Below, one piece after another: positions 21,685-63,508 of a stretch of 64,000 nucleotides of DNA (positions are counted from its first letter, which is position 1; every line of letters begins with the position of its first letter). Made by a program: the position numbers and the translations under genes. The notes beneath the pieces are model-generated. The model made no database searches, was not told the origin of the DNA, and worked only from the letters and a program-made list of their open reading frames with translations. This stretch comes from Pagrus major (taxonomy: Eukaryota; Chordata; Actinopteri; Spariformes; Sparidae): assembly GCF_040436345.1 (NCBI RefSeq), contig NC_133235.1, forward strand, positions 18,748,660 through 18,812,659, read 5' to 3'.

Positions 21685-22055
21685 AATTATTATTATCTCT
21701 GCCAAGGAGGTTATGTTTTCACCCATGTTCATTTGTAGGTTGGTTGGTTTGTCAGCAGGATTACACAAAAACAACTGAACAGATTTCTTGGAAACTTGGA
21801 TGGAGGATGGGTCTCGGCCCAGAATAGACCCCATTAACTTTTAGTGTGGATCCAGATTAATTTTTTTCTCACTTTCTTTAACATTGCAAGATTTTTTTTT
21901 TTTTTTTAATCATTTATTGTTAATTTCTCAGAAAAAATGATGAATGGATCACAATGAAATAAATCAGGCATTTTGAGGTGGCTGGTATCTGTGAGTGAGT
22001 ATCAAAGGAGACTGTTTGTCCTTGGCAAAGGTATTTGCTGAGAGCCATTCTAGTA
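21685..22055 (+). repeat. Dispersed fish repeat bordering the TTATG array
   Basis: Begins TCTGCCAAGGAGGTTATG and ends TTGGCAAAGGTATTTGCTG...CCATTCTAGT, directly followed by the pentamer array. Its interior (ATTGTTAATTTCTCAG, GGTGGCTGGTATCTGTGAGT) is shared in inverse orientation with 26,985-27,225, 27,246-27,420, 35,695-35,945 and 38,315-38,541. I recognise it as a widespread teleost repeat. It has no coding capacity. Confidence 0.7.
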
Positions 22056-25000: not shown

Positions 25001-26910
25001 GTTATGTTATGTTATGGTGTGTTATGTTATGTTATATTGTGTTGTGTGGTATTAATTCAAGTTATGTAATATCATGTTATGTTATGTTATGTTGTGTTGT
25101 GTCATGTTATCTTATGTTATGGTGCATTATGTTATGTTATGTTGTGTTCATTTATGTTCTGTTATGTTATATCATGTTATGTTATGTTATGTTATGTTGT
25201 GTTACAGTGTATTATGTTGTGTTATGTTATGTTATGGTGTGTTATGTCATGTTATGTTATGTTGTGTTGTGTCATGTTGTACTATGTTATGGTGTGTTAT
25301 GTTACGTTATGTTGTGTTATGTTGTGTTACAGTGTATTATGTTGTGTTATGTTTTGTTATGTTGTGTTATGTTATGTTGTGTTATGTTATGTTATATTGT
25401 GTTGTGTAGATTAATTTAAGTTATGTAATATCATGTTATGTTATGTTGTGTTATGTTGTACTATGTTATGGTGTGTTATGTTACGTTATGTTGTGTTGTG
25501 TCATTTATGTACTATATTATGTTGTGTTTTTTTATATTATGTTATGTTATATTATGTTATGGTGTGTTATGTTATGTTGTGTAATGTTACGTTATACTGT
25601 GTTGTGTAGTGTTAATTTAAGTTATGTAATGTTATATCATGTTATGTTATGTTATATTATGTTGTGTTGCGTTGTGTAATGTACTATGTTACGTTGTGTT
25701 ACAGTGTATTATGTTGTGTTATGTTATGGTGTGTTATGTCATGTTATGTTATGGTGTGTTATGTTATGTTATGTCATGTTGTACTATGATATGGTGTGTT
25801 ATGTTACGTTATGTTGTGTAGTATTCATTTATGTTCTGTTATGTTATATCATGTTATGTTATGTTATGTTATGTTGTCTTGTGTCATGTTGTCCTATGTT
25901 ATGGTGTATTATGTTACGTTATTTTGTGTTGTGTAGTGTTCATTTATGTTCTGTTATGTTATGTTATGTTGTGTTACAGTGTATTATGTATTGTTATGTT
26001 ATGGTGTGTTACAGTGTATTATGTTGTGTTATGTTATATTGTGTTGTGAAGTATTAATTTAAGTTATGTAATATCATGTTATGTTATGTTATGTTATTTT
26101 ATGTTGTGTTATGTTATGCTGTTTAGTGATATATGTTATGTTATGTTATGTTGTGTTGTGTTATTTCTTGACAATTCTGCCCAGAACTGCAACATCTGAT
26201 GTGTTATGTTGTGTTGTGTAATGTTGTACTATGTTATGTTGTGTTACAGTGTATTATGTTGTGTTATGTTATGTTATGGTGTGTTATGTTATGTTATATT
26301 GTGTTGTGTGGTATTAATTCAAGTTATGTAATATCATGTTATGTTATGTTATGTTGTGTTGTGTCATGTTATCTTATGTTATGGTGCATTATGTTATGTT
26401 ATGTTGTGTTCATTTATGTTCTGTTATGTTATATCATGTTATGTTATGTTATGTTATGTTGTGTTACAGTGTATTATGTTGTGTTATGTTATGTTATGGT
26501 GTGTTATGTCATGTTATGTTATGGTGTATTATTTTATGTTGTGTTATGTTATGCTATTTAGTGATGTGTTATGTTATGTTATGTTATGTTATGTTGTGTT
26601 GTGTTGGGTTATTTCTTGACAATTCTGCCCAGAACTGCAACATCTGATGTGTTGTTGTGTTGTATCATGTTGTACTATGTTATCGTGTGTTACGTTACGT
26701 TGTGTTGTGCTACGTCATTTTGTACTATATTATGATGTGTACTATGTAATGTTGTGTGTTATGTTATGTTGTGTTGTGTCATGTTGTACTATGTAATGTT
26801 GTGTTATTTTATGTTATGTTGTGATACTTTTTTTATGTTGTGTTATGTTATGCTGTTTAGTGATGTGTTATGTCATGTTAGGTTATGTTATGTAATGGTA
26901 CTTGTGTTAT
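22056..26910 (+). repeat. ~4.85-kb TTATG pentanucleotide satellite with higher-order structure
   Basis: Thousands of bases of TTATG with recurrent variants (TTGTG, TTACG, TTACA, GTGTT) arranged in longer repeated blocks. For example, a block running ACATTATGTTGTGTTGTGTC recurs near 22,590, 23,137 and 23,874. Because 5 and 3 are coprime, every plus-strand frame reads the same cyclic peptide (Leu-Cys-Tyr-Val-Met), while the minus strand hits TAA every 15 bases. The long plus-strand open frames here are therefore artefacts, not genes. The array starts at the CTAGT end of a dispersed repeat, and a short CATAA tract borders an inverted copy at 27,225-27,246. Confidence 0.95.
23985..26523 (+). repeat. 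1,262-bp tandem duplication inside the satellite
   Basis: 23,985-25,261 and 25,247-26,523 appear identical wherever I compared them, including a non-pentameric 37-bp block (24,905-24,941 and 26,167-26,203) and several unusual variants. The offset is constantly 1,262. Either this is a very young duplication by unequal exchange, or an assembly artefact. Confidence 0.9.
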
Positions 26911-26949
26911 TTCTTGACAATTCTGCCCAGAACTGCAACATCTGATGTG
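24905..26949 (+). repeat. 37-bp non-satellite block present four times
   Basis: A block starting CTTGACAATTCTGCCC occurs at 24,905-24,941, 26,167-26,203, 26,615-26,651 and 26,913-26,949. The last copy is the array's right border, where unique-looking sequence (GAGAATTATACATGATG) begins. The other copies show that border sequence was carried into the array by repeated duplication. Confidence 0.9.
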
Positions 26950-26979
26950 AGAATTATACATGATGTGAAGAAAAACAAG

Positions 26980-27420
26980 GAGAGTGGCACTCAGTAGAGC
27001 ACAGACCTCCGCCAAGACCCAACAGTCTCCTTTAATTCAATCAAGACTAATCCAATATCAAACAAAACATTTTTAAATCCAGTAGATCTGGATCTTTATT
27101 TGGATCTGCATCAAATTGTACTCCCTCATAGATACTAGCTGCTTAAATATGGCTGATTTTTTTTAATCATGATCAATGTATTATTTCCTAAGAAATGAAC
27201 GAAAATGTTGAAAAAAGGTACACAACATAACATAACATAACATAACACTAGAATGGCATTCAGTAAGGCTCCGTTGGTTCTCAGTAATAGATACCAAATA
27301 CCTTAGTTCAGATTTTTTTCATCAGGATCCACGCATAATTCAAAAAATGCCCAAGCTTGCAATGTTAAAGAAAGTGAGAAAAAAGATCCTGGATCCATCC
27401 CCTTATCTGGATCATAAAAA
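26980..27420 (-). repeat. Two further copies of the dispersed repeat flanking the array
   Basis: A first copy (about 26,985-27,225) begins GGCACTCAGTAGAGC and continues CCTTTAATTCAATCAAGAC. A CATAA tract follows at 27,225-27,245. A second partial copy then begins CTAGAATGGCATTCAGTA (27,248). Both are in the opposite orientation to 21,685-22,055. The CTAGAATGGC end adjoining CATAA pentamers mirrors the left border of the satellite. Confidence 0.7.
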
Positions 27421-28694
27421 TACCATGGAGATACAAACATGTCAGCTTCTGGAGGACTTGTGTGTCTTTTTTGGCCACATGAATTTTAGATACATTCCCA
27501 TTTTATGTTTCTAGTGTAAATCTATTTACTGAAATGTTATGTATTGCTATGTTGTGTCTTATTGTCATATGTTATGCTGTCTCAAGGGCCTTTTCCTTGC
27601 CTACAATTCTTTTCAAATTGTTGTCCTTCATAAAGTAACCAAAAAAGTTGCATGAAATACTTGCAAATAAGCAACATTAAAAGTGAAAGTTGCAAAGTGA
27701 GAGATGTTAAAAAAAAAAATTAAAAAATAAAGATACAAAACAAGCCAGATGGGAAAAATTTAGCACGAAACATCAGGACGCACTGTTTGATACATCAAAT
27801 GGCCAGTCTTACAAGAGGCAGCTAAGCCTTTGCAGTAGGCCTAGTCTGAATATCCAGATGTTTGATTTGTTAATTAAGTCTCCATGGTAGTTAATCACTG
27901 TGTTTTTCTATCTGACAACAGCAGGTAAGTAGAGGAGGACGACCCTAAAATATAGAGACATGGTGGTGTGGGATATGCAGAGACAGGCTGCATTTGTTCT
28001 TTGTGGTGAACATTTGTGTTTGAAAACACAGTAACAGCAAAAAAAGTTGCTGAATCAAAAAACAAAAGCAGATATAAACAGCAGAAACATGGAAATATTT
28101 ATTCAAAGCAGTACATCTATTTAGCTCTTTAGTAGGGATTTTGTTAGTTTAGAAGATAATACATCTCTGTCTTCATTTTTCATGGCTGATGAGGAAACTA
28201 CATCAGATTATTATCAATAATGTGGCCCAGTAATAATGACACAGACAGTATTATGCCAATACCCATGTCCCCTCTAGTGGAGAAATGTAGCACTGCAGTG
28301 GCAAAATAAAGGCCAAGCTGCAGCATGAGAGGTGTTTTTTTTAATCCATCGTCTATCAAATACACATTTTTTTTCTTTTTAAGAATGAACACATCAGCCT
28401 CCTGTATTGATGACTGAGCAAAACAAAGATGTGTTGCATTCATGTGCGAGGTCAGAGTGTGTGTTAAACATGCAATCTAATCCTTTTTTAAAACACAATA
28501 TTCCCATGACAAATTCAATCAGGATGAGGTGCATTAGCAGAGTGTCAAACATGCCAGTGTATGTCGTACGAGGATTAAGTCATCTATATTTGTTCACTAA
28601 AACAGTTGTTTGTAACAATAAGGCTGACGCACTTAATCGATTTGCATGCATTTTCCTTGACAGTCCAGATTAACTTTATTAGCAATATGCACAA

Positions 28695-33345: not shown

Positions 33346-33672
33346 TCACACTGAGGCAACATTTGGAGGGATGGCTGCCACTGTATTGAGGTTGTAACTA
33401 TCGTCTCCCCTCCGGGATGAAGTGCTACATGGCACAGAGAGATGCCTCCTATACCTTTGTGCTCCAAATACAACATGGAGCAGCGGGTTCAAGCAGCAGT
33501 GGAAGTAAGGCAATGTGCAAATAATATACCTTGCATAGTACATTTCGTTTGTATATTCCAGAACATTGATCACCATCAAGTAGTCTATAAAGAGTGTGAT
33601 ATTGTATGGTACCAGACTAACAAAAAACATAACAATTATCCCCAAACTCAATCTTTAAGTCTGGTGATGTCT
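33346..33672 (-). pseudogene. Truncated chemokine-receptor-like GPCR (TM6-TM7 and tail only)
   Basis: The open frame keeps the last third of a receptor closely related to the gene at 33,934-34,899: TM6 (FFVSLVPYNIT), the third extracellular loop, TM7 (CLNPLLHVVF) and the tail to NVASV. At about 33,672-33,680, receptor sequence (GGTGATGTCTGTT) joins directly to sequence (CCAGAATTAGACAGTC) that in the intact units lies upstream of the start codon. An internal deletion of roughly 720 bp therefore removed TM1-TM5. It cannot encode a functional receptor. Confidence 0.85.
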
Positions 33673-33933
33673 GTTCCAGATCCAGAATTAGACAGTCAGC
33701 AAAAAGACGACGCAACAGTCAGGATAAAGTCTTCTGGCACCAAGTTTAATGAAGAGTTCTGCGGGCAGGTAGACATGAATAAGGAGTGGAAAGATACAAA
33801 ATGGGGTACAGTAGCTGTTTGAAGATGATGCATGATGTAACACTTGTTTAAACAGGAAATGTGCAGAGAAACCAAAATCAATTTTCCATCTTAAACTCTG
33901 TTATTATTATTATATTATTATATTATTATTATA

Positions 33934-34899
33934 TCACACTGAGGCATCATTTGGAGGGATGGCTGCCACTGTATTGAGGTTGTAACTCTCATCTCCCCTC
34001 CGGGATGAAGTGCTACATGGCACAGGGAGATGCCTTCTAAACCTTTGTGCTCCAAATACAACATGGAGCAGCGGGTTCAAGCAGCAGTGGAAGTAAGGCA
34101 GTGTGTAAATAATACACCTTGCATAGTACATTTCGTTTGTATATTCCAGAACATCGATCACCATCAAGTACTCTATAAAGGCTGTGATATTGTATGGTAC
34201 CAGACTAACAAAAAACACAACAATCATCCCCAAACTCAATCTTAAAGCCTGGTGATGTCTGTTTGTCCCGCACATTTTGATAGTTATCCACATATGGACA
34301 CAGCAGAATCTAATGATAATGAACGGTACGAGAAAGAAAAGGCCAAAGCGCACGGCGAGGTTAACATGGATCGTAGTAAATGATACTGTACCTGACATCG
34401 TAATGCTTGCAGCAACACATACCAGCCATATCACAATGCTAGCTTTTAGGACACAGCATTTTTGGTGGGCCTGTGCAGACAAACACGAAGCATGCATCAC
34501 AGCAACATAATGACTCAACGTGATGGCAGTGAGGATCAACACGTAGCTGTGCAGCCCCAGAAAAAAAGCCCCTATAAATATTCTCTCGGTCCAGCCCTCA
34601 AAGATCAGGTCATGGAGCATACGGTAGGCCTTAAAAGGCAGGGTCAAAGTGAGGCATAGGTCAGACATTGTAAGTTGCAGATGCCAGATGCCAGGTGTGG
34701 TCTTCCAAGCTGGTCCCCTCAGAAGAACCCACATGAGGAAGCTGTTTCCAGGTACGCTGATGCAGAAGATGATGATTACGCACACAGAGTGGAAGAGATG
34801 ACAGAAAGGTTTCTTCACTCTGATTTCATCATCAACATCAAAGTCAGGGTCAAGGTCATAGTAGAAACTGTCATTGAATTCAGTGTCAAGACCTTCCAT
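33934..34899 (-). CDS. Atypical chemokine-receptor-like GPCR (degenerate motifs), copy A
   Basis: The protein has 321 residues with seven predicted helices and an acidic, tyrosine-containing N-terminus (YYDLDPDFDVDDE) like chemokine receptors. Helix landmarks present are GNS in TM1, SDL in TM2, W in TM4, P in TM5 and VPYN in TM6. Key motifs are altered. DRY is SHY (129-131). The TM3 cysteine of the conserved disulfide is replaced (Glu at about 105), and no cysteine is found between TM4 and TM5. NPxxY is NPLLH (275-279), and the TM6 tryptophan is Leu. A splice acceptor (TTTCTTCAG) sits upstream of the ATG, so a 5' non-coding exon is likely. It is probably plasma-membrane and poorly G-protein coupled: a decoy/scavenger receptor, or a decaying gene. 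The nearest subfamily is not assignable. Confidence 0.75.
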   Translation of the reverse strand: MEGLDTEFNDSFYYDLDPDFDVDDEIRVKKPFCHLFHSVCVIIIFCISVPGNSFLMWVLLRGPAWKTTPGIWHLQLTMSDLCLTLTLPFKAYRMLHDLIFEGWTERIFIGAFFLGLHSYVLILTAITLSHYVAVMHASCLSAQAHQKCCVLKASIVIWLVCVAASITMSGTVSFTTIHVNLAVRFGLFFLVPFIIIRFCCVHMWITIKMCGTNRHHQALRLSLGMIVVFFVSLVPYNITAFIEYLMVIDVLEYTNEMYYARCIIYTLPYFHCCLNPLLHVVFGAQRFRRHLPVPCSTSSRRGDESYNLNTVAAIPPNDASV

Positions 34900-34982
34900 T
34901 GTTTACTTGTTGCTGTTTCTTTAGGAAGTGACTAAAGCTCTGAATCCTGAAGAAATGAAGATACACTGTCCACGTAATGGCC

Positions 34983-35945
34983 TTCTCATCCAGAATTAGA
35001 CAGTCAGCAAAAAGACGATGCGACAGTCAGGATAAAGTCTTCTGGCACCAAGTTTAATGAAGACTCCTGCGGGCAGGTAGACATGAATAAGGAGTGGAAA
35101 GATACAAAATGGTGTCCAGTATGTGTTTGTAGATGATGCATGATATAACACTTGTTTAAACAGGAAATGTGCAGAGAAACCAAAATCAATATTTCATCTT
35201 AAACTGTATTATTAAGATTTCCACAATTATGCCCCAAACAGATTGAAATCATAGCAAACACAACATATCCATACACAGCACACAGCACAGGCTTGCATAG
35301 AATAATATTAACTGTTATGAAACACGTGAATGTGAAATACACTTTAAAACATCCCATGAATAATTTATATTCATTAGTTCTCATAGAAGAAGTTATAAGC
35401 AATGAGAAATAACTTACAGATAATACTTTTGATGGCCTAAATCAAAGGATGGCAGTAGATGGTGTAACAGATCATACATCTGCTGGTATTTCCGTGACAG
35501 TAAGACATGTTTCCACACTTTCTGCTTATATCGCTTCAGTAGATGCACCACATTAACCACACGTTCTGCTGAGATCACTCAATGTATGGAGGATATGACG
35601 TTAATTCCTCACAATGCTTCAGAATACATTTTATATTTGTGCACAACTCTCACTTGAAGGAATGAATAAATAACTACAATGACACTCTTCTTTCGTTCAA
35701 CAGTCCCCTTTAATTCAATCAAGCCTAATCCAATATCAAACCCTACAGCCCCATATCACTCATACTTTTTAAACCACCATAAACCCCATAACTGCTTAAT
35801 TATAATTTAAGACCACCAGATGTAGGATCCACATCAAATTGTATTCAGTCATAGATACCAGCCACCTAAGCATACCTGATGTCTTTTCCCACCAAGATCC
35901 ATGCATTGTTACCTGAGAAATTAACTAAAATCTCGCAGCGTTAAA
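34983..35945 (-). other. Upstream non-coding part of receptor unit A
   Basis: Homologous to 37,598-38,541 over most of its length. 34,983-35,215 may hold the receptor's 5' untranslated exon. 35,695-35,945 is a copy of the dispersed repeat also found at the satellite borders. The conserved short open frames are not credible proteins. Confidence 0.5.
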
Positions 35946-36165
35946 GAAAGTACCTGAAAAATGTTCTACATCTGCCAAAAACAAAAAATGTTTGTCTTCA
36001 ATAACAGTTTAGCAGGTTATGCAATTCTTTATTTCCATGTTATCTGCGTGCAACCATGCATATTTAAAACCACTTTTATGAGACTTTGTTTTAAAAATGA
36101 TTCAATTGAACTGTTAAAAAGTCAACCAGAGATGATGTTTTCAACCAGCTCAAGAAGCTACCGTT

Positions 36166-36520
36166 AGCTTAATTAGAAAGCTTGCTACAATTGATCCATT
36201 CTAGGCTTGTAACAGTCATCAATTTAGACGGCGTCTAAAAATGAGGATACTGATGTTAACTTGCTTCAGTCTACCATGGACACATTGTTTAAGAAATTTG
36301 AATTTAGAGTTTTAAATCTTGCATGGTTGTAAACTGCCATGATATGACAGGCATATGATAGACATAGAAACACCTGACAAAAGAGGATGAGGCTTTGCAA
36401 ACAGTCATGATTGAGATTTGCAAGTAATTACTTCTTATCATAAAGATTGGCTCAGTGTGGTCAATTAGACTGTTCTCATGTTTAAAAGACTCTAGACAAA
36501 TATAAATGTTTGTTGGTCAC
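36166..36520. other. Unit-specific spacer
   Basis: About 350 bp between the homologous blocks at 35,946-36,165 and the 3' end of receptor copy B, without a counterpart between 33,340 and 33,934. No gene. It explains why neighbouring homologous segments differ in spacing. Confidence 0.4.
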
Positions 36521-36566
36521 GCTGAGGCATCATTTAGAGAGATGGCTGCCGCTGTATTGAGGTTGA

Positions 36567-37514
36567 CTATCGTCTCAACCCCCCACCCCCACCCCCCCGG
36601 GATGAAGTGCTACATGGCACAGGGAGATGCCTCCTAGACCTTTGGGCTCCAAATACAACATGGAGCAGCAGGTTCAAGCAGCAGTGGAAGTAAGGCAGTG
36701 TGTAAATAATACACCTTGCATAGTACATTTCGTTTGTGTTTTCCAGAACATCGATCACCATCAAGTAGTCTATAAAGAGTGTGATATTGTATGGTACCAG
36801 ACTAACAAAAAACATAACAATTATCCCCAAACTCAATCTTAAAGCCTGGTGATGTCTGTTTGCCCCGCACAGTTTGATAGTTATCCACATATGGACACAG
36901 CAGAATGTAATGATAATGAACGGTACGAGAAAGAAAAGGCCAATGCGCACAGCGTTTTGAACATGGAATGTAGTAAATGATAGTGGAAGTGACACCCTAA
37001 TGCTTGCAGCAACACATACCAGCCATATCACAATGCTAGCCATTAGGACACAGCATTTTTGGTGGGCCTGTGCAGACAAACACGAAGCATGCATCACAGC
37101 AACATAATGACACAATGTGATGGTAGTGAGGATCAACATGTAGCTGTGCAGCCCCAGAAAAAAAGCCCCTATAAATACTCTCTCGGTCCAGCCCTCAAAG
37201 ATCAGGTTATGGAGCATACGGTAGGCCTTAAAAGGCAGGGTCAAAGTGAGGCATAGGTCAGACATTGTAAGTTGCAGATGCCAGATGCCAGGTGTGGTCT
37301 TCCAAGCTGGTCCCCTCAGAAGAACCCACATGAGGAAGCTGTTTCCACGTACGCTGATGCAGAAGATGATGATTAAGCACACAGAGTGGAAGAGATGACA
37401 GAAAGGTTTCTTCACTCTGATTTCATTGTCAAAGTCAAAGTCAGGGTCATAGCCACAGTAGTCAATGTATTCAGTGACAAGGCCTTCCATTGTTGTGGAC
37501 TGTTGCTGTTCCAT
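36567..37514 (-). CDS. Atypical chemokine-receptor-like GPCR, copy B (altered ends)
   Basis: A 315-residue paralog of the 33,934-34,899 receptor with the same degenerate core. DRY is CHY, the TM3 cysteine is absent, and TM7 reads NLLLH, so even the NPxxY proline is lost. A small insertion duplicates CCATTGT and adds an in-frame upstream ATG, extending the N-terminus to begin MEQQQSTTMEG. The C-terminus ends SSRGGGGGGLRR because an expanded C-rich tract (36,581-36,600 on the plus strand) shifts the frame. The tail seen in copy A (SYNLNTVAAIPPN-type) is still present out of frame. It is either a functional diverged receptor or an early pseudogene. Confidence 0.65.
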   Translation of the reverse strand: MEQQQSTTMEGLVTEYIDYCGYDPDFDFDNEIRVKKPFCHLFHSVCLIIIFCISVRGNSFLMWVLLRGPAWKTTPGIWHLQLTMSDLCLTLTLPFKAYRMLHNLIFEGWTERVFIGAFFLGLHSYMLILTTITLCHYVAVMHASCLSAQAHQKCCVLMASIVIWLVCVAASIRVSLPLSFTTFHVQNAVRIGLFFLVPFIIITFCCVHMWITIKLCGANRHHQALRLSLGIIVMFFVSLVPYNITLFIDYLMVIDVLENTNEMYYARCIIYTLPYFHCCLNLLLHVVFGAQRSRRHLPVPCSTSSRGGGGGGLRR

Positions 37515-38734
37515 TGTACTTGTTGCTGTTTCTTTAGGAAGTGACTAAAGCTCTGAATCCTGAAGAAATGAAGATACACTGTCCACGTAATGGCTTTCTC
37601 ATCCAGAATTAGACAGTCAGCAAAAAGACGATGCGACAGTCAGGATAAAGTCTTCTGGCACCAAGTTTAATGAAGACTCCTGCGGGCAGGTAGACATGAA
37701 TAAGGAGTGGAAAGGTACAAAATGGTGTCCAGTATGTGTTCGTAGATGATGCATGATGTAACACTTGTTTAAACAGGAAATGTGCAGAGAAACACACACC
37801 AATATTCCATCTTAAATTGTATTATTAAGATTTGCACAATTATGCCCCAAACAGATTGAAATCATAGAAAACACAACATATCCGTACACAACACACAGCA
37901 CAGGCTTGCATAGAATAATATTAACTGCTTTGAAACATGTGAATGTGAAACACACATAAAAACATCCCTTTAACAACTTATATTAATTAGTTCTCATAGA
38001 AGAATTTATAAGCAATAAGAGATAATTTACAGATAATACTTTTGATGGCCTAAATCGTAGGATGGCAGTAGATGGTGTAACAGATCATACATCTGCTGGT
38101 ATTTCCATGACAGTAAAACATGTTCCCACACTTTCTGCTTATATCGCTTCAGTAGATGCACCACATTAACCACAAGTTCTGCTGAGACCACTCTCAGTGT
38201 GGGAAGGATATGACGTTAATTCCTCACAATGCTTCAGAATACATTTTATATTTGTGCACAACTCTCACATGAAGGAATGAATAAATAACTACAATGACAC
38301 TCTTCAGTCGTTCAACAGTCCCCTTTAATTCAATCAAGCCTAATCCAATATCAAACCCTACAGCCCCATATCACTCATAATTTTTAAACCACCATAAACC
38401 CCATAACTGCTTAATTATAATTTAAGCCCACCAGATCTAGGATCCACATCAAATTGTACTCAGTCATAGATACCAGCCACCTAAGCATACCTGAATTTTT
38501 TTTCCCCATCAAGATCCATGCATTGTTACCTGAGAAATTAACATTATCTTAGGGTCATTTTTGACCCACCAGTTAAAATCACCTTCAAAGTAAATTGCAC
38601 ACCACATAAAATCACACAGACACACACACATTGAGATTTTTTGCTACTGTTTGAGATCGGGTGCAGGTGTAAGGTCCAGGTGTAACCTCTCCACGACCCT
38701 ACACTTGACTCGTTTACAAACAAAACACACACAC

Positions 38735-38735
38735 A

Positions 38736-38797
<62 letters not shown>
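38735..38797. repeat. (GA)n microsatellite
   Basis: About 30 GA units inside the piggyBac relic. Confidence 0.95.
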
Positions 38798-38800
<3 letters not shown>

Positions 38801-38819
38801 GTGCTACTGATTGATTTTT

Positions 38820-39267
38820 TCAAACCAGGAAGAACAAGAGATAGAAGAGGAAGAGGAGGAGGAGGTATCTGAAGAGTAAGATGGGGAAGAATACAACCCA
38901 GACCACGATGCATCCTCTTCAGAGGAGGAAGAATTTCCCCAGACTGAAAGAGAGACATTTTTGTTGAAGAATGGCAAAATAACATGGTCTTCATCACCAT
39001 TCAATGACCAGGGCAGAAGGGCATCACAAAATATCATAAAGATGACCCCAGGGCCCACAACATATGCAGCAGCCCATGCAAAAGACATCGCCTCAACTTT
39101 CCTCATGTTCATCTCACCAACCATCAAGAAAATCATCCTGGAGATGACAAATATGGAGGGATTCCATAGATATGGTGATGAATGGAAGAAGGTGGATGAC
39201 ACTGACCTGCGTGCCTACATAGGACTCTTAGCAGGTGTTTACAGGTTTTTGAAGTTGGATTCCTATC
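38820..39267 (+). pseudogene. piggyBac (PGBD4-like) transposase fragment
   Basis: The acidic Glu/Ser-rich N-terminal region is interrupted by an in-frame TAA near 38,877. It is followed by the DDE_Tnp_1_7 start: ITWSSSPFNDQGRRASQNI, TPGPTTYA, MTNMEGFHRYGDEWKKVDDTD and YIGLLAGVYR. The frame is cut at the nested insertion at 39,268. The catalytic Asp residues lie in the missing part, so it is inactive. Confidence 0.8.
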
Positions 39268-39270
39268 TAA

Positions 39271-40069
39271 GGTCGGGTTCACACCTAAAGGTCCGTGAAA
39301 GGTCCGTGTTTTGATCCGAACCAACGCGAGGATGATACATTGTTTCAATTTTGAGTCGGTCCGGTTTGCGTTCACAAAGGCCAAACTCAAACAGTCCAAA
39401 GTCTGTAAACAAAACTCACATGGCTGCAACGCCCTTCTGTTATTGGTCAAACTGTTTAGGCGGGTAGACAGCAAATCTGTACATCAGATCAGTAGCCTAC
39501 TGTACATCATGGAGCGTCTGCTTACTTTTTACATTAGTGCTGATCTGGAGCGCTTACACGCAAACTTCAATGGACCGCGCGTATGAACGCCTCATAGAGC
39601 AGCGGGCATTAAATAATGTCTTGATCCATGCATTTCGCCGAAGACGCTATGCGATCCGATGATCGTACAGGAGCAGACGACAGGCTATAATGAGGGCCTA
39701 CCATGACGTTTTGTCTACACAAGCAGGACCAGTGAGGGAAGCAGACAATCACAAACGTGTAAAAATCACAAAGTTGGCTCATCATAAAAGCAGCTCTTGT
39801 TTATAGAATCCATGCATCTCCTTGAATGAATGAATGAATGAATGAATGAATGCCCCTATAGGCTACTGTACACACCAGAAATAATCCGCTCTGGAGTTCG
39901 CTTGATAGCGGACCGAGACCACCTCTACGAGGCGGACCAGGGTGCGGTTGTTTGGTCCACACCAGAGTTCGAGGGGAGCATTCACACCGACTCAAACAAA
40001 CTGCACCATGGGGCAAACGCTCAAGGGTTTGGTTTAACCGGACTAAACAAGGCTGGTGTGAACGCGCCC
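39271..40069. mobile_element. Nested Harbinger-like non-autonomous element with TAA target duplication
   Basis: The left end is GGTCGGGTTCACACC. The right end is GGTGTGAACGCGCCC, an inverted match with two mismatches in 15. TAA flanks both sides (39,268-39,270 and 40,070-40,072), as expected for PIF/Harbinger-type insertion. It interrupts the piggyBac transposase fragment. Short coding-like remnants near 39,510-39,680 are too decayed to name. A (TGAA)n run lies at 39,825-39,851. Confidence 0.75.
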
Positions 40070-41867: not shown

Positions 41868-42881
41868 CTATTTTGAGGGTAGTTCCAGTATCACGGCAGA
41901 GTTTTGTGCAATAAAAGCTGCATTCTGAATAACAGAAGTGTTCTGGCCAGCGCCCTTGTCTGTGCTCTTTCTCTGGGCTTTCTGGCAGCGTAGAAGTTGC
42001 AAAAGATGTCTTCGTAACTTTTGAGAGAGCATATACAGCAGAGGATTCATACAGCAGTGAGAAAAAGCAAGTATACGAAAAATAGAATGGGCAATGTATA
42101 TGCGTTCCTTCGCATTACAGCCCCGGGGTTCATAAAAAGCCTGGATGAAAATCAAAATATTGTAAGGACCCCAGCAGATGAAGAAGGCTGCAATGATACA
42201 AAACATCACCACTACAGGCCTGTACCTTTTCCTGTTTGAAGCCTGCAGAACGGTCTTGAGGATGGCAGAATAGCAGAAAACAATGATGGCAAATGGGAGG
42301 AAGAAGAGCAGTGACACTTGGAGATAATATCCCAGGTTGACATCAGAGCTATCAGAAGTAGCCTCACAGTACGAACGATTGTCCCAGTAGGTTTCCACCT
42401 GTACTTTGACAGCATCACTCACAGATGCACCAATGCTGATGACCCAGGCAGCTGCACAGCCGGCTATAGCACACCTCTGCCTCTTTAGCTGGCTGCCTGG
42501 CCAGTTGTGCAGCACCACTGTTATGAAGCGATCCACAGTCATGGCAGTCAGCAGAATGATGCTACTGTACAAACCAAGAAAATTTGCTGCAGTCACAAAT
42601 TTGCAGACAAAGTCACCAAATACCCAGTGGTGCAGGTAATAGACGGCCCAGAATGGAAGTGTGAAGGTGAAGACCAAATCGGAGCAGGCCAGGTTCAGGA
42701 TGAAAAGATTTGTGACATTTTTCATCTTCTCGTAGATGAAAAGAACACATGCGAGGATGATGTTGCCTATGACACTGAAGATGAAGATCAGAATGAAGAT
42801 GGCACCACTGACGGTGTCAAAGTCAATCTCCTCACAATAATACACCACTTCATTGTCGTAGTCCACACCTCCATCGCCCAT
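41868..42881 (-). CDS. Chemokine receptor, XCR1/CCR12-like
   Basis: A 337-residue seven-helix GPCR of normal family length for immune-cell chemotaxis. Its N-terminus is acidic with Tyr residues (candidate sulfation) and a Cys. TM1 has GN, TM2 SDLVFTFTLPFWA, and TM3 starts with Cys93 paired in family terms with Cys172 in loop 2. The TM3 end is DRF (117-119) instead of DRY, TM6 is CWGPYN and TM7 NPLLY. All core motifs are thus near canonical. An acceptor (TTTCCTAG) lies about 15 bases before the ATG. A good donor (CAGG|GTAAGT) near 43,097 and a TATA-like ATAAAAG at 43,273-43,279 (minus) outline a 5' exon and promoter. XCR1 or fish CCR12 is the closest class by feel; the exact ortholog needs a phylogeny. 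Confidence 0.85.
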   Translation of the reverse strand: MGDGGVDYDNEVVYYCEEIDFDTVSGAIFILIFIFSVIGNIILACVLFIYEKMKNVTNLFILNLACSDLVFTFTLPFWAVYYLHHWVFGDFVCKFVTAANFLGLYSSIILLTAMTVDRFITVVLHNWPGSQLKRQRCAIAGCAAAWVISIGASVSDAVKVQVETYWDNRSYCEATSDSSDVNLGYYLQVSLLFFLPFAIIVFCYSAILKTVLQASNRKRYRPVVVMFCIIAAFFICWGPYNILIFIQAFYEPRGCNAKERIYIAHSIFRILAFSHCCMNPLLYMLSQKLRRHLLQLLRCQKAQRKSTDKGAGQNTSVIQNAAFIAQNSAVILELPSK

Positions 42882-43097
42882 TGTGGAGTTGTAGGTTTTC
42901 TAGGAAACAAAAGTACAAAATAAATTTGACAAAGTGTACTCAGGGCTGAGCACGTCTCCAACTTTCCAGCAATTTTTCATTTCAAAACAAAGATTTCCTT
43001 CTAAATAATTTCAATATGGTGAGCAATTGAGTACTAAGTAGGTTATGTTACGGTTAAAAATAAGGAGAGCAGTTACAGTAAGTGAGAAGCAACTTAC

Positions 43098-45740: not shown

Positions 45741-46790
45741 CTACATCGACAACTCCTCGCCACTTGTTACTGATATGATTGTGAGTCGACTTTGCCTATT
45801 GGGGATGCTGCTGTTGTTGTTATGGCCCCAGCTCTTCAGCATTTTCTTCAAGTGGTTCTTGAATTTAACCCCCAGAAACACATAAAACACAGGGTTGAGG
45901 CAGCAGTGTGAAAAGGCAAAAAGTCGGCTGATGTAAAAGGCATAATCCAGTCGTTTTGTCATCTCACAACTTCTAACTACATCCGCTGAGTCAGCAGGTG
46001 GTTGGGGCCAAAAAGAAAAAGACTTTAGAAATATTACTATATTGTAAGGTGCCCAGCCCACAAAGAAAACAGCCACGAGAGCGAAAATGAGCTTTAAAGT
46101 TTTGCTCTTTCTTCTTTGGGCAGTGGGACGCAGCAACCTGCAAATGATCTGAGAATAGCAAAAAATGAATACCACTGAATTTAATATGAAGAGAGCATTT
46201 TGCTGGTAGATTGCCCACAAATTCCAGTTAGAATTTTCAAAGACACAGTGATTCTGGTCGACTTTGGTGAAGATGAAGGCTGGACTGGTGACCAGTACGC
46301 TCAGTCCCCAAATGACCACAGATGCTAGGACACTGTAGAAGCCTTTGGTGGACACAATGTCGGACAGAGGATTCATGACAGCTATGTAACGGTGAGCAGT
46401 CATCAGGATGAGAAGGAAGCCACTGCTGTAGAAGCCGAGATAGAAGACAAAGCTGACTATTTTGCATGGATATAACCCAAAAATCCATCCATGCATGTGG
46501 TCGTAGGCCCAGAAAGGCAGACCTGCGGTGAAGAAGAGATCGGATACAGCCAGGTTCAGGATGAAAGTGTTGGTGATGGATTTGAGATTCTCATACTTGA
46601 CCAGAATCACAATGACCAGGATGTTGCCAAACAGACTGAGGATCACCACGATGGAGAAGAACGCTGGGATGAAGATTGCTCCAGACTCAATGAGGCTTGT
46701 TTTGTCGCACTCGTCACTTTCGTAGTAAAAGTCGGTGGTTGTGTCGATGCTTGTAATAGTTGTAACTGCAAAGTCTTCAGATGTAGCCAT
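45741..46790 (-). CDS. xcr1: XC chemokine receptor 1-like (XCR1)
   Basis: A 349-residue GPCR. The TM3 end reads TAHRYIAVM, the HRY variant characteristic of XCR1 (human XCR1 also has HRY). Conserved cysteines are present in the N-terminus (Cys29), TM3 (Cys109), loop 2 (Cys182) and loop 3 (SCEMTKRLDYAF). TM6 is FFVGWAPYN and TM7 HCCLNPVFYVF. KYENLKSITNTFILNLAVSD also matches the XCR1 pattern. In mammals XCR1 binds XCL1 and directs dendritic cells. Its position next to fyco1 matches the human XCR1-FYCO1 neighbourhood and supports the call. The ATG at 46,790 follows an acceptor (AATTTTAG, exon edge about 46,806). Which of the several fish xcr1 genes it is remains open. Confidence 0.85.
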   Translation of the reverse strand: MATSEDFAVTTITSIDTTTDFYYESDECDKTSLIESGAIFIPAFFSIVVILSLFGNILVIVILVKYENLKSITNTFILNLAVSDLFFTAGLPFWAYDHMHGWIFGLYPCKIVSFVFYLGFYSSGFLLILMTAHRYIAVMNPLSDIVSTKGFYSVLASVVIWGLSVLVTSPAFIFTKVDQNHCVFENSNWNLWAIYQQNALFILNSVVFIFCYSQIICRLLRPTAQRRKSKTLKLIFALVAVFFVGWAPYNIVIFLKSFSFWPQPPADSADVVRSCEMTKRLDYAFYISRLFAFSHCCLNPVFYVFLGVKFKNHLKKMLKSWGHNNNSSIPNRQSRLTIISVTSGEELSM

Positions 46791-46806
46791 ATTCTTTCAG
46801 TCAAGT

Positions 46807-59100: not shown

Positions 59101-62100
59101 CTGATCAAACCGGAGCATGAGTGCATCGTGTGCACGTGTACATAAAACGTGTGTGCAAATTACTAAATTTAAATTTAAATTAAAATTTTATTTAAATAAA
59201 AATTAAATAAACACATTTGTGTCACCTCCCAGGCTCCTTAGAATCTACTCCTGTCACACACATTATAAAATAAAGATACAATTTGCAAGTGCAGTATTTC
59301 TTTCAACGGTTATTTTATAGTTACATTCGACAGTACAGATGCAGCATGTTTGATAAGGTGTATTTTTTTGTGGTCTCTTTCTCAACTTGAGGGCAAGCCT
59401 TTTTTCCGCTTGTCATTTCCTTTAGCCTGATGCAATGGGAACCTTATCATGACTGTACCAGAGAAGATATATTTAACATATTCTTTTAACTGTCATTTGA
59501 GAAGCATCCAGGAACACTGTGTTGTTATAGTGTCACCTAAATTCTCACTTCTGTGAATCTAAGTTCCTCTTTTGTGTTGAGATTGTTGCCATGTTTATCT
59601 TACACTTGCCTTTTATTAGGTTTTAAATTACCTTAATTTGGTGTCTCATTATGTGCCAGGCGAACGTTAGGCCCTGCCTCATCAGCTTTCCTGTGGAAGC
59701 CTCCCAGTCGCTGCTCCAGCATCAACAGTCTCGTTAGCTACTCACATTCACAGGTACACACAATTATATAAAAGGGGTGTTTGATTTTAGACTATCACAT
59801 CTGGATACGTAAGGATCAACAGATCCCTGACAACTGTCGTTTACATTTTCAAATTCTTCATTCAAAAGATAAATGATAAATCAATAAAGGATCTCTGATA
59901 AAGAAAATAAACCCAAATCTCACAGTTACTACTACTACCACTACTACCAGTTGTTATTTTCTTTTTTCTTCAGACGCAGAGCCTCCTTTTGATTTGGTTG
60001 TTGTAATTGGAAGCTCATTTTGATGCTGAATCTGATTTTAATTCAGCATCAAATTCGTGACACCCCTATTACATTCATACTCTACTTAGACAATCTTGCA
60101 CAAATATTTTTGTAAATGTGACTTTGAATTTAAAAGCACCTAAAACGGTTCTCTCTTGTTCCATTCACTGACCAGGCGCACGAGTTTCTCCCTATCCCCG
60201 ACTTGAGTCACAGTCTCCTTGGTGACCTGGGGGAACTGGGGGAACCTTCTCCTTGCAGCATCGCGGAAAACCTCCGCATTGAGCTCGACCAGTCCGAGCT
60301 GAGACAGCAGGAACTTCTGGAACGGGTTCAGGAATTAGGCAAAGAGGCTGCTGAGCTGAAAGGCGTGGTCAAAGACCTTCAAGGGCAGCTATTAGCGGCT
60401 CAGAAGTCCTCTGGCCTCTCAGTGTCTACAGCAGCCAACCAAGAAACAGACAATCAGGAGAGTGCAAATCACCGTCAAACCAGTCGGGAAGCAATAAACA
60501 GTGAACTTCAGGACAGACTCACAGCTGCTGAGAACAAAAATATGGAGCTTCTCTCCAAGTTGGATGAGGCTCTTAAGGAAAAGGGACAGCAAACAGCGAG
60601 CTACTGCGACTCAGCTTGGAAAATCCAGGAACTCCTGGATAAACTCAAGACAGCAGAGGAGGAGAGGTTGGAGGCAAAGAGAGAGGCTGAGGACAGGACC
60701 AGGAACTCTGAGCGTCTGTCCCAGGAACTAAAACTCAGGGAAGAAGAGTTGAGGAACAGCGAGGAGAAGCTTGTCGAGGTAAAAGCCGGAGCCCATGATG
60801 AACGCGAGGAGGCACTCAAACGTCTTGAGGAGCTCCAAAGTGCAGTCAGTCGCATTCAGGGGGCGCTGACATTAAAAGAGAAGGAGACAGGGAACTTGAG
60901 AGCCCAGCTTCAGGATCTACAAGCATCGCTGGAATGCAGAGAACGGCAGGCGGAAGAGCTGAGAAAAAGACTTCAGGAGGAGAGGGACGAGGAAGAGCAG
61001 AGATGGAGCATGAGCAGTACTCAGAATGAGGAACTTGAAAGCCAACTCCTAGATGTAAGAAAAAGTCTAAAAAACAGAGAGAAAGAGCTAGCTGTAAGTT
61101 CAGAGAGAATTAAGCACTTAGAGGAGCAGTTGGAGAAGCTAAACATTGAGAAAGAAAGTCTGAGCTCCAGACTTGCTGATAATGAAGATGTTTGCGGTGA
61201 TCAAACCAAGAACCTTGATGACTATAAAACCCAGTGCAGTAACCTCATGGAAATAAACACCAAGCTACTCCAAACTGTCAAGGAGAGTGAGGAGAGTATT
61301 ACAGAGCTGACTGAGAGCAGGGAAGCCTTGTTAGACCAGCTGGCTTCTATGAGGGCTTCAGAAAAGCACTTAAAGGGCAGAATAGAGGCTGCAAAGATGT
61401 GCGTCGAAGATCGGGAGAAGAAGCTTCTGGATGAAAACCTGCATTTGGAGGAGAGTCTCCAGAAGACGCTCGTTCAGAAGGAGGTATCCAACGCTCAATT
61501 AAAGAAGCTAGAGCATGAGAACAAGGAGCTTCTTGAGGTTCAGTTCTCGTTGAAGAAACAGTTAGCTACATCTCAACAGGAAGTGGACTCGCTCACTGCC
61601 AAAGCCGCACAGTTGGACAAGAACCTCACAGTGTCCCAAAGAAGCCAAGCAGAGTTACTTGAAAAACTCCAGGAAACTGAGGCTAAACTGAGAGACCAGA
61701 CTGTGAAATGTGGGCTTCTGCAAGCTAGAGCAGAGGAGCTGGAGAGCAGGACCACGGAGCTGCATGATGAAAAGGGAGCTGCAGAGAGCAATGAAAAAAT
61801 GCTGAAGCTTCATGATGAGCATCAGACATCCTCAATGGAAACCAAAGAGGCTCCGTTCAGGCTGGTTATAGCCGAGGCTCAGCTAGAACTCAACCTGAGG
61901 GAGGTGCACCGACTCCGGGAAGAGGTGGTGGAGCTCAGGGCTCAGCTTCTAGCAGGCGCTGAGGAGAGGATGAAAGTTCAGGCACTGCAGGAGGTGACGG
62001 AGTCTTCCAGAGAGGACCTCCGTGTCTTAGCAGAACAACTCAAAGCCCAGGTGGAGGAGCTGAACCGCCGGCATGTGGATGAGATTCTCCGGTCCCGGGA

Positions 62101-63508
62101 GCGAGAGGAGGCTCTCATCCGGGAGCGTGACGGTGAGGCTCAGGCTCGAGCAGGTCTGGCTGCGGAGGTGACAGCCTCTAGAGAGGAGCTCAGTAAACTA
62201 AAGCAGCGTTATGAAGCCTTGTGTCTGGAGAACACTGAATCCAGGGAGGCACTTCATAGAGCAAACACCGAAACAGCTGAACTCGGTGTACAGTTGTGTA
62301 TGCTAACTGCTGAGAAAGAAGAGGCTCGTCTCCGCTGGGAGGGCTTGTCGACAAGGCTGCAAGAGCTGGAGGAGGAGGCAACTGAGGAGGCAGAAAGGCT
62401 GAATACCTGCATAGAGCAGCTACGTCAGGAGAACCAGCGACTGCTCGATCAGCTCCATAATGACGAGAGTTTGTTGGTAACCAGGCAGGAGCTGAGCAAG
62501 GCCCAGCAGGAGGCTGAAGCTGTGCAGGAGACGAACCAGGAGGAGATTCAGGCGCTCCGCTTCCAGCTCAGCAGCCAAGCCATGAGCCAAGGCAGCCAGC
62601 TTCAGGTCAGTCACAATGAGTTCAGCTAAAGAAATATGTGACACACAACTTACTTCGTTTTTTTTTTGTTTTTTTTAATGTAATCCCCTTCTTATAACTT
62701 ATAAACCAAAATGACTTGGTACAAGGTTTGACACCAGGCCTATGTGACAGTTGAATCAGATATTTTACTGTTTTTAATGGCAACTGCATTTTAGTTGAAA
62801 ATGCTTTTGCTACATTTGAAAGAGTTTGTGCAATATTAAACATAGCTGGAACCTCTTCCACTGAAGTGAAAGGGTAAAGTTACAGCGCAATTCTATGAAA
62901 GGAGAAGTCACATGTAGTTAAGCATTCTTATATTTGAAATAATTCCTTCCTAAGTCAGACTGAAACCAAAATTAACATAAAGAAGCCACTAAAAATATGA
63001 ATAAGCAGTTTCCGCAGCTGCATGCAGACACCTTTGACAGTGGGTAAGAAATCCCCCTACTGACCTGCTGATGTTTTTAGTTTCAGTTTTATTTATTTGT
63101 ACATTTATAACACTTTAAAATAACCATCATTAATAAAATTCTAATTAATTAAACTAGTTATTCCTCTGTTAATAAACAATAAAATGCTTTTAAACCATTT
63201 ATTGAGCCATTTTAAAGGTTTATGAACATTAGTTGCAACTTTATAATGGCGGCACTGTATTCATTAACCATTTACAAATAATTCTAAACATTAGTTGCAA
63301 CTTTACTATGAGCAATTGCTTGAAAAACAGCTTATTAGGCAACATCAGCAAAACTACTGTAATATCAGAATAGTCATCAGTAAATGAGTTTGTGGTTTGT
63401 TTTCTTCTCATCCAGACTGTGAATCAAGAGTTACAGGAAGTGAAATTACAGCTGACGACTGAGCAGGAGAAAGCAGACAACCTGGAGAACAAATTCAAAC
63501 AGCTTGAG
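51390..63508 (+). CDS. fyco1: FYVE and coiled-coil domain-containing protein 1 (FYCO1), 5' part, eight coding exons
   Basis: FYCO1 links autophagosomes and late endosomes (Rab7, LC3, PI3P) to kinesin for plus-end transport. Coding exons, all GT-AG with matching phases, are 51,390-51,450, 51,737-51,843, 52,899-53,024, 55,578-55,684, 57,908-58,051, 59,660-59,753, 60,176-62,605 and 63,416-63,508, giving 1,054 codons. The start [20 protein letters not shown] resembles human FYCO1. The RUN domain (about residues 36-170) includes [54 protein letters not shown] and [11 protein letters not shown]. The coiled coil begins at about residue 230. The FYVE zinc finger, LIR and GOLD domain must lie in later exons past 64,000. 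No receptor gene is nested in these introns, unlike CXCR6 in human FYCO1. Fish have two copies; a or b is undetermined. Confidence 0.93.
52182..52472. mobile_element. MITE in fyco1 intron (TAGTGTTGTCATG ends)
   Basis: The left end is TAGTGTTGTCATGTATCGAT and the right end is AGTATCATGACAACACTA, inverted. It is about 291 bp, lies between coding exons 2 and 3, and is non-coding. Confidence 0.75.
53385..53640. repeat. CGATTAATCG/GCAACTA dispersed fish repeat
   Basis: Runs from GCAACTATTTTCATTA through CGATTAATCATTTAGTCTTT and AGACATCTTTAAAATG to TAATAGACTAGTTG. This order is that of a ubiquitous teleost repeat. It is intronic in fyco1. Confidence 0.7.
53830..54075. repeat. Possible mobile-element remnant in fyco1 intron 3
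   Basis: TTCAGACTGCCAGCCCAAAT...CAGATCCAAATCACATTTGG...GTGACGTCAAATCC resembles decayed DNA-transposon sequence, but no terminal repeats could be paired. No coding frame. Confidence 0.35.
54137..54174. repeat. (ATTG)n microsatellite
   Basis: About nine ATTG units in fyco1 intron 3. Confidence 0.9.
55085..55390. repeat. Inverted/partial copy of the GCAACTA dispersed repeat
   Basis: The right end is AACTAATCAGTGGTGAAAAT followed by AATTGCTAGTTTC, the typical end of the same family as 53,385-53,640. The interior has decayed. It lies just upstream of fyco1 coding exon 4. Confidence 0.5.
56097..56142. repeat. (GT)n microsatellite
   Basis: About 22 GT units in fyco1 intron 4. Confidence 0.95.
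56218..56350. repeat. (TTAGC)n and adjoining dispersed repeat
   Basis: Pentamers TTAGC/TTAGT at 56,220-56,274 are followed by TAAAGAATGGAAGCAGGAGA and GAGCTAGCCTGGCTACC. This is a common fish repeat whose end is pentameric, a situation parallel to the TTATG array. Confidence 0.7.
56408..56765. mobile_element. GGGCTGTCA...GCGATTAATTGC-type dispersed element
   Basis: Starts GGGCTGTCACTCGGATTAAA and includes GCGATTAATTGCATGATTG, CTCTTATCAACATGGGAGTG and AACATGGCAAATTCAAGCCC in the order of a very common teleost repeat. Open frames through it, on both strands, are not genes. It lies in fyco1 intron 4. Confidence 0.75.
57200..57335 (+). mobile_element. LINE (L2/CR1-like) 3' tail
   Basis: GCACTTTGTAATATCTG...AAAGGTGCTATATAAATAAA followed by a (TTA)n tail is the characteristic 3' end of L2-type LINEs. 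A second tail-like piece (TGCATGGGATCAATAAAAC) lies at 57,720-57,740. Only 3' ends are present. Confidence 0.65.
58517..59241. mobile_element. ~725-bp element with GGAGCC(T)RGGAGGTGACA inverted ends
   Basis: The left end is CTTACGGAGCCTAGGAGGTG followed by ACATGGATGTG. The right end is ACACATTTGTGTCACCTCCC followed by AGGCTCCTTAG, its inverted counterpart over about 31 bp with a few mismatches. The interior is AT-rich without transposase. This non-autonomous DNA transposon lies in fyco1 intron 5. I cannot assign its superfamily. Confidence 0.75.
60018..60053. repeat. Short inverted repeat before fyco1 exon 7
   Basis: 13-bp arms (TTTGATGCTGAAT at 60,018-60,030 and its complement at 60,041-60,053) around a loop of about 10 bp, some 120 bp upstream of the exon 7 acceptor. 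Function unknown. Confidence 0.7.
60176..62605 (+). CDS. fyco1: fyco1 giant exon 7: coiled-coil rod
   Basis: A 2,430-bp exon (810 codons) encodes residues about 214-1,023, almost entirely Glu/Gln/Leu/Lys-rich heptad sequence that should form a long dimeric coiled coil. The frame is fixed by the upstream phase-0 junction (CAG|GCGCACGAG). Translation does not start here, although the frame is open from the exon edge. It ends at AGCTTCAG|GTCAGT; the frame continuing to a stop at 62,629 is intronic. An equivalent single large exon is known in mammalian FYCO1. Confidence 0.92.
62606..63415 (+). other. fyco1: fyco1 intron 7
   Basis: Between donor CAG|GTCAGT and acceptor TCATCCAG. AT-rich, with the duplicated word CATTAGTTGCAACTTTA (about 63,229 and 63,288). 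No other gene. Confidence 0.6.

Follow-up and report, generated by a model that had tools for sequence, protein, structure and literature searches.

Two neighbouring XCR1-type receptors of Pagrus major without G-protein switches or the TM3-ECL2 disulfide: silenced receptor or decaying cluster?

The window analysed here is a stretch of 64,000 nucleotides from contig NC_133235.1 of Pagrus major. It contains two neighbouring open reading frames (ORFs) for seven-transmembrane (7TM) receptors, A and B, and the remains of a third copy, C, on the same strand as two normal receptors of the XCR1 type, R42 and R46. A and B have retained the seven-helix frame and have lost the switch network used in G-protein activation (R3.50, Y5.58, Y7.53 and W6.48), together with the disulfide module of extracellular loop 1 (ECL1), transmembrane helix 3 (TM3) and ECL2. 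Is this a receptor that has given up signalling through G proteins, or is it a gene cluster in decay? The features that bear on this question, in window coordinates, are these:

33934..34902, minus strand: receptor A, a 321-residue 7TM ORF with its ATG at 34899; SHY at the DRY position, SLVP, and NPLLH for NPxxY; no TM3-ECL2 disulfide; tail intact
36567..37544, minus strand: receptor B, a 7TM ORF with its first ATG at 37514; CHY at the DRY position, SLVP, and NLLLH for NPxxY; P7.50 lost; C-terminal tail replaced after a G-rich insertion
33346..33706, minus strand: copy C, a fragment with upstream sequence joined directly to the part from TM6 to the tail; two in-frame TAA; pseudogene
33680..33906, minus strand: what is left of the noncoding sequence upstream in unit C; identity 93.8% to its match in unit A and 91.6% to that in unit B
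34903..35925, minus strand: upstream part of unit A, likely a 5' intron; splice sites by inspection
37545..38542, minus strand: upstream part of unit B; acceptor the same as in unit A, candidate donor GTAAAT, not GTAAGT (by inspection)
41868..42899, minus strand: R42, normal XCR1-type receptor; DRF, CWGP and NPLLY; sister of A+B in the tree
45741..46796, minus strand: R46, normal XCR1-type receptor; HRY, a motif shared with the solved XC receptor 1
60134..62629, plus strand: coiled-coil exon, which we take to be FYCO1-like; a related exon lies beside an XCR1-like gene on C11

A, B and fragment C are a recent tandem duplication whose unit measures some 2.6 kb. Aligned locally, noncoding flanks included, the copies are 89.7-94.8% identical, and the A/B pair is what remains of three such units. 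Copy C spans 33.12-33.91 kb and has an internal deletion in addition to its two stop codons, and in B the G-rich insertion replaces the part after residues SSR and leads to an early end of the frame. Of the pair described in the initial annotation, A has frame and tail whole, whereas B is degenerating beside a broken third copy. In unit A the likely intron acceptor TTTCTTCAG ends at 34947, 47 nt 5' of the ATG, and a candidate donor CTGTAAGT lies near 35417 (both by inspection). A likely acceptor directly 5' of the start codon was likewise seen by inspection in R42, R46 and B, and this shared position argues against A/B having arisen as a retrocopy.

The seven-helix frames and the motif losses reported for A and B in the initial annotation were confirmed by Pfam and by alignment. 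Both match the 7tm_1 profile (A 67.1 bits, B 55.8; gathering score 30.5), for which the normal neighbours score 187 and 176.9 bits. Positions are named by the Ballesteros-Weinstein scheme, mapped through CXCR4, in a motif alignment that included named receptors from solved structures. All eight of the named positions W23.50, G of xFG, C3.25, R3.50, C45.50, Y5.58, W6.48 and Y7.53 are gone from A and from B. In both, C3.25 has become Glu and W6.48 Leu; no residue aligns with C45.50, and loop 2 of A (residues 169-182) is free of Cys. Further changes had not been listed before: Y5.58 is Cys, S3.39 is Tyr, and the W-xFG motif of ECL1 and the Cys of ECL3 have disappeared. The stretch between TM4 and TM5 has 19 residues in A and B and 29 in XC receptor 1 and R46. 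Retained in both are N1.50, D2.50, W4.50, P5.50, F6.44, P6.50 and N7.49, and A also keeps the NP of NPxxY. The claim that motifs of G-protein activation have been lost is upheld by the replacement of all four switch residues, and A, to judge from these residues, should be unable to use the normal activation route. A hydropathy scan was uninformative: at the threshold used, seven clean peaks were absent from the normal R42 as well as from A. AlphaFold models of A with four window receptors (pLDDT 44.5) scored like the control R46 with the same four sequences (44.2), and the models are thus uninformative on A.

How unusual are these losses within the species? The genome (785,883,843 bases in 25 contigs) was searched with A, and 124 of 131 candidates were scored, giving 64 matching rows. 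Identity to A is 79-100% for the rows of A, B and C and at most 38% for all others, R42 having 31%. A further 40 genome stretches were taken, 38 of which have an ORF above 100 bits against a receptor profile; weaker remaining search rows were left out, and L037 and L042 (below 100 bits), L008 (which duplicates L011) and a weak second ORF of L023 were dropped. R42 and R46 bring the set of own-genome relatives to 40, of which at least five are partial (L016, L021, L023, L040, L048). C3.25 is present in all 40, R3.50 in 39 (all but the partial row L021), Y7.53 in 38 (one Phe, one truncated row) and Y5.58 in 33; W6.48 is variable by itself and is present in 29. After A and B, the rows with the fewest motifs are L048, without four (all gaps), L021, without three (two gaps), and L038, without three (no gaps), and no row other than A and B has lost more than three of the eight positions by substitution. 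The TM4-TM5 stretch has 29-56 residues in the other rows that cover it (n = 39, the truncated L048 excepted). A pattern-based scan of bacterial and archaeal contigs found no relative.

A maximum-likelihood tree was built from 40 taxa and 274 columns under LG+F+I+G4, omitting ten rows that were partial or resembled a retained one (L012, L016, L021, L023, L031, L032, L040, L041, L048 and a partial CX3CR1). A+B pairs with R42 at an approximate likelihood ratio test (aLRT) value of 89.4 and an ultrafast bootstrap (UFBoot) of 97, within an XCR1 clade of XC receptor 1, R46, L009, L018, L030, R42, A and B supported at 95.9/96. As XC receptor 1 is also the best solved-structure match of R42 and of R46, the adjacent genes are indeed normal XCR1-type receptors, as first annotated. 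The stem of A+B measures 1.675 substitutions per site against 0.733 for R42, and long-branch effects on its placement are possible, but R42, with which it pairs in the tree, has a short branch and lies beside it on the contig. ACKR3 is placed elsewhere, with L046 at 100/100. The likeness to atypical chemokine receptors drawn in the initial annotation did not hold for this one: A and B fall outside its group and, unlike ACKR3, have lost the conserved TM3-ECL2 disulfide. By its placement the pair is an offshoot of the XCR1 family and not of ACKR3, and orthology with ACKR1, ACKR2, ACKR4 or CCRL2, none of which is in the tree, is unlikely given the position beside R42.

The surroundings agree with XCR1 synteny on the FYCO1 side, R42, R46 and the FYCO1-like exon all lying in the window. 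The FYCO1-like/XCR1-like pair recurs on C11, where, in the 90 kb examined, a second FYCO1-like exon (40% identity) adjoins the XCR1-like gene L009 (C11 13940500-13947000, YRY replacing DRY). L009 is the only match to A in these 90 kb, and its locus is likely the counterpart of the A/B locus from a whole-genome duplication. The window also holds a gene with HLH and Neuro_bHLH domains (Pfam), presumably neurod6-like; its protein has no match in the same 90 kb. On C19, at 6.78-6.84 Mb, three similar receptor ORFs (L030, L031, L032) have Ser for both D2.50 and N7.49 and DRH for DRY; L030, the only one of them in the tree, groups with L018 in the XCR1 clade.

Some repetitive sequence was seen around the duplicated units. 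An AG/GA microsatellite (38719-38803) lies immediately past the upstream edge of unit B. Short stretches at 21915-22001, 27020-27063 and 27102-27206 match the most upstream portion of units A and B (around 35.7-35.9 and 38.3-38.5 kb) at 74-95% identity, which suggests a repeat element at the edge of the duplication unit. From about 22000 to 28000 runs a long low-complexity array with a 5/10-base unit and hundreds of overlapping matches. The array is strongly strand-skewed (GC skew 0.45 at 24-28 kb) and gives rise to long spurious ORFs on the plus strand. A 144-residue ORF at 38880-39314 (plus strand), which we supposed to resemble the start of a piggyBac-type transposase, had no match in a Pfam search, and that guess is unconfirmed.

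Has the lineage of A and B been maintained as a protein? When R42 was drifted without constraint, the frame had acquired a mean of 7.5 stops when identity reached 50% and of 10.6 when it reached 30%, and was open in 0 of 2000 runs at each. The frame of A is free of stops. Because unconstrained drift closes the frame in every run, the lineage was held as a protein over most of its stem. Eighteen alignment columns are conserved in at least 85% of the 38 other taxa. A retains 11 of these (N1.50, D2.50, W4.50, P5.50, P6.50, P7.50 and others) and B nine, where the 11 other taxa for which counts were given retain 15-18. The seven columns lost by A correspond to the disulfide/ECL1 module and the R3.50-Y5.58-Y7.53 triad, a grouping made post hoc.

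We favour, at a probability of about 0.45, the reading that A/B is a G-protein-uncoupled receptor of the XCR1 type in which A is the only possibly working copy. A could plausibly be the one copy still functional, with B and C being lost. Its N-terminus has 11 acidic residues and two Tyr in the first 33 positions; an acidic, Tyr-bearing N-terminus is common to A, R42 and R46, while the NDS sequon in that of A is absent from B, R42 and R46. If this reading is right, the protein would reach the membrane, its N-terminus may still capture a chemokine-like ligand, and the ligand would be held or internalised without activation of a G protein. The signalling of the neighbouring XCR1-type receptors would thereby be limited, as has been proposed for Cxcr3.3 and Cxcr3.2 of zebrafish. 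The putative decoy or scavenger role first suggested for the pair fits this anatomy; it is weakened by the shortened ECL2 and the lost disulfide. A second suggestion, that the receptors bind viral ligands, was not supported; two pattern-based scans of viral contigs found no receptor relative, a result without bearing on ligands.

The differences between A and B are concentrated on the outer face. The extracellular parts differ at 26 of 189 sites, compared with 24 of 705 elsewhere (p = 7e-7) and 51 of 1001 in the noncoding sequence (p = 6e-5), with region borders that were set from landmarks after the differences had been inspected. Synonymous differences are distributed likewise, being high in the outer loops (6.0 of 38.2 sites) and low in the transmembrane parts (1.5 of 127.7). 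We considered positive selection on the outer loops but do not claim it, since this shared pattern makes sequence exchange between the copies at least as good an explanation. A bolder version of the favoured reading would have A as a living, atypical chemokine sink derived from XCR1, without TM3-ECL2 disulfide or classical switches, that acts as a brake on XCR1-type signalling while exchange between copies keeps the outer loops different; we regard this as unlikely.

Several observations weigh against a working A, and most of them are what would be expected if the whole trio were a decaying cluster. In that case an XCR1-type duplicate would have escaped constraint by about the time of the tandem duplication, or earlier, and lost its switches, with all copies drifting and A merely not yet broken. 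Between A and B, dN (nonsynonymous divergence) is 0.060 and dS (synonymous divergence) 0.050 (NG86, 298 codons), and three other methods give dN/dS of 1.3-1.6. The initial annotation had named a ratio near 1, combined with absence of expression, as evidence against its proposal, and the range of 1.2-1.6 is the first half of that. Differences in the upstream noncoding parts (51/1001 sites) are about as frequent as in the coding sequence. The transmembrane and inner parts show no significant deficit of nonsynonymous differences relative to noncoding sequence (p = 0.25), and there is no sign of present constraint on A. The probability that A would have no stop after 25 neutral substitutions is about 0.45, indels not counted, so its frame may plausibly have stayed open by chance since the duplication. 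B has lost P7.50, a conserved Phe of helix 8 and the C-terminal tail, C is broken, and no second locus of the A/B type was found among the scored candidates (124 of 131) of the single genome searched.

Is B then decaying faster than A? Its tip in the tree is longer (0.103 against 0.024). In the stretch from TM6 to the tail (330 sites) A has 7 private differences, B 16 and pseudogene C 8; in the upstream noncoding sequence (227 sites) the figures are 2, 7 and 12. As B exceeds A in the noncoding part too, its excess is not specific to coding sequence. Positions at which A alone or B alone differs (A:B) are too few at the protein level to show B as the faster: 1:4 against R42, 0:5 against R46, 2:5 against L009, 1:4 against L018, 3:4 against L030 and 2:2 against XC receptor 1.

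The decay of B and C makes the pseudogene explanation a close second, and we consider it somewhat less probable than the favoured reading. Over a stem of such length a frame would be most unlikely to stay open by chance, as the simulated drift at both identities indicates, and the conserved residues that were kept and lost are unlike a random sample, though their grouping was made after the fact.

A further difficulty for an uncoupled receptor that captures ligand is the outer face itself. The loop shortened to 19 residues in A and B is the one that normally clasps the chemokine; C45.50 is found in all seven named receptors whose sequence spans it, the ECL3 Cys in all eight, and both are missing from A and B. 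With the disulfide gone and the loop shortened, a role in holding ligand is less easily sustained. The same changes would fit an A whose function needs no soluble ligand; it might, for instance, partner with XCR1-type receptors or other membrane proteins and so restrain them, its ligand binding lost along with C3.25, C45.50 and much of the loop while the helix-packing residues were retained. However, the N-terminus of A is still acidic with Tyr, like those of its neighbours, and the extracellular clustering of the A/B differences suggests that the outer face may matter, and such a partner role seems to us quite improbable. An assembly or sequence error behind the odd motifs or the tandem copies is hardly credible: the tail change of B is a G-rich insertion, an error-prone type of sequence, but the losses are identical in A and B, and in C for the TM6 and TM7 motifs, and copies 5-10% apart in local alignments differ too much to be haplotypes of one mis-assembled gene.

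If A works as an uncoupled receptor, it would be another silent receptor made from a duplicate in fish, after Cxcr3.3 of zebrafish, and to our knowledge the first such within the XCR1 family. A 7TM protein released from signalling would then be shown to manage with very little of the receptor core. If A is nonfunctional, the locus illustrates clearly how XCR1 genes turn over by birth and death.

Several known systems can be set beside the pair. Judged by sequence, no G-protein signalling would be expected of A and B, as with ACKR1-4 and GPR182. ACKR3, the sole atypical receptor compared, keeps DRY, both Cys and NPxxY. XCL1 and XCL2, the ligands of XCR1, are listed among the chemokines unpaired with any ACKR in one part of PMC10157204; elsewhere the same source describes GPR182 as a binder of all four chemokine classes, among them XCL. 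In teleosts, an expansion of XCR1 to several XCR1L copies has been published (PMC4690017), and the passages of that paper available to us make no mention of such motif losses in XCR1L. Fish-specific chemokine receptor sets are assigned in a survey of G-protein-coupled receptors, which cites a study of three grouper XCR1-like receptors (PMC6504862), and zebrafish duplicates appear as xcr1a.1 and xcr1b.1 in PMC9059464. No description of XCR1 paralogues without switches was found in the open-licence literature, covered largely at title level, which is a weak negative. A and B share clade and location with these XCR1-type genes and differ in having lost R3.50, Y5.58, W6.48, Y7.53, C3.25 and the ECL2 Cys, all kept in R42, R46 and the solved XC receptor 1. 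A likeness of another kind is zebrafish Cxcr3.3, which has R3.50 replaced (DCY) and altered microswitches and clusters with normal paralogues (PMC7028096), and which has been proposed as a scavenger of Cxcr3.2 ligands (PMC7028096; review PMC7053378). Like A and B, it is a fish paralogue with R3.50 replaced that groups with normal relatives; it belongs to another receptor family and reportedly has a conserved ligand-binding site, while A and B have lost the disulfide and much of ECL2.

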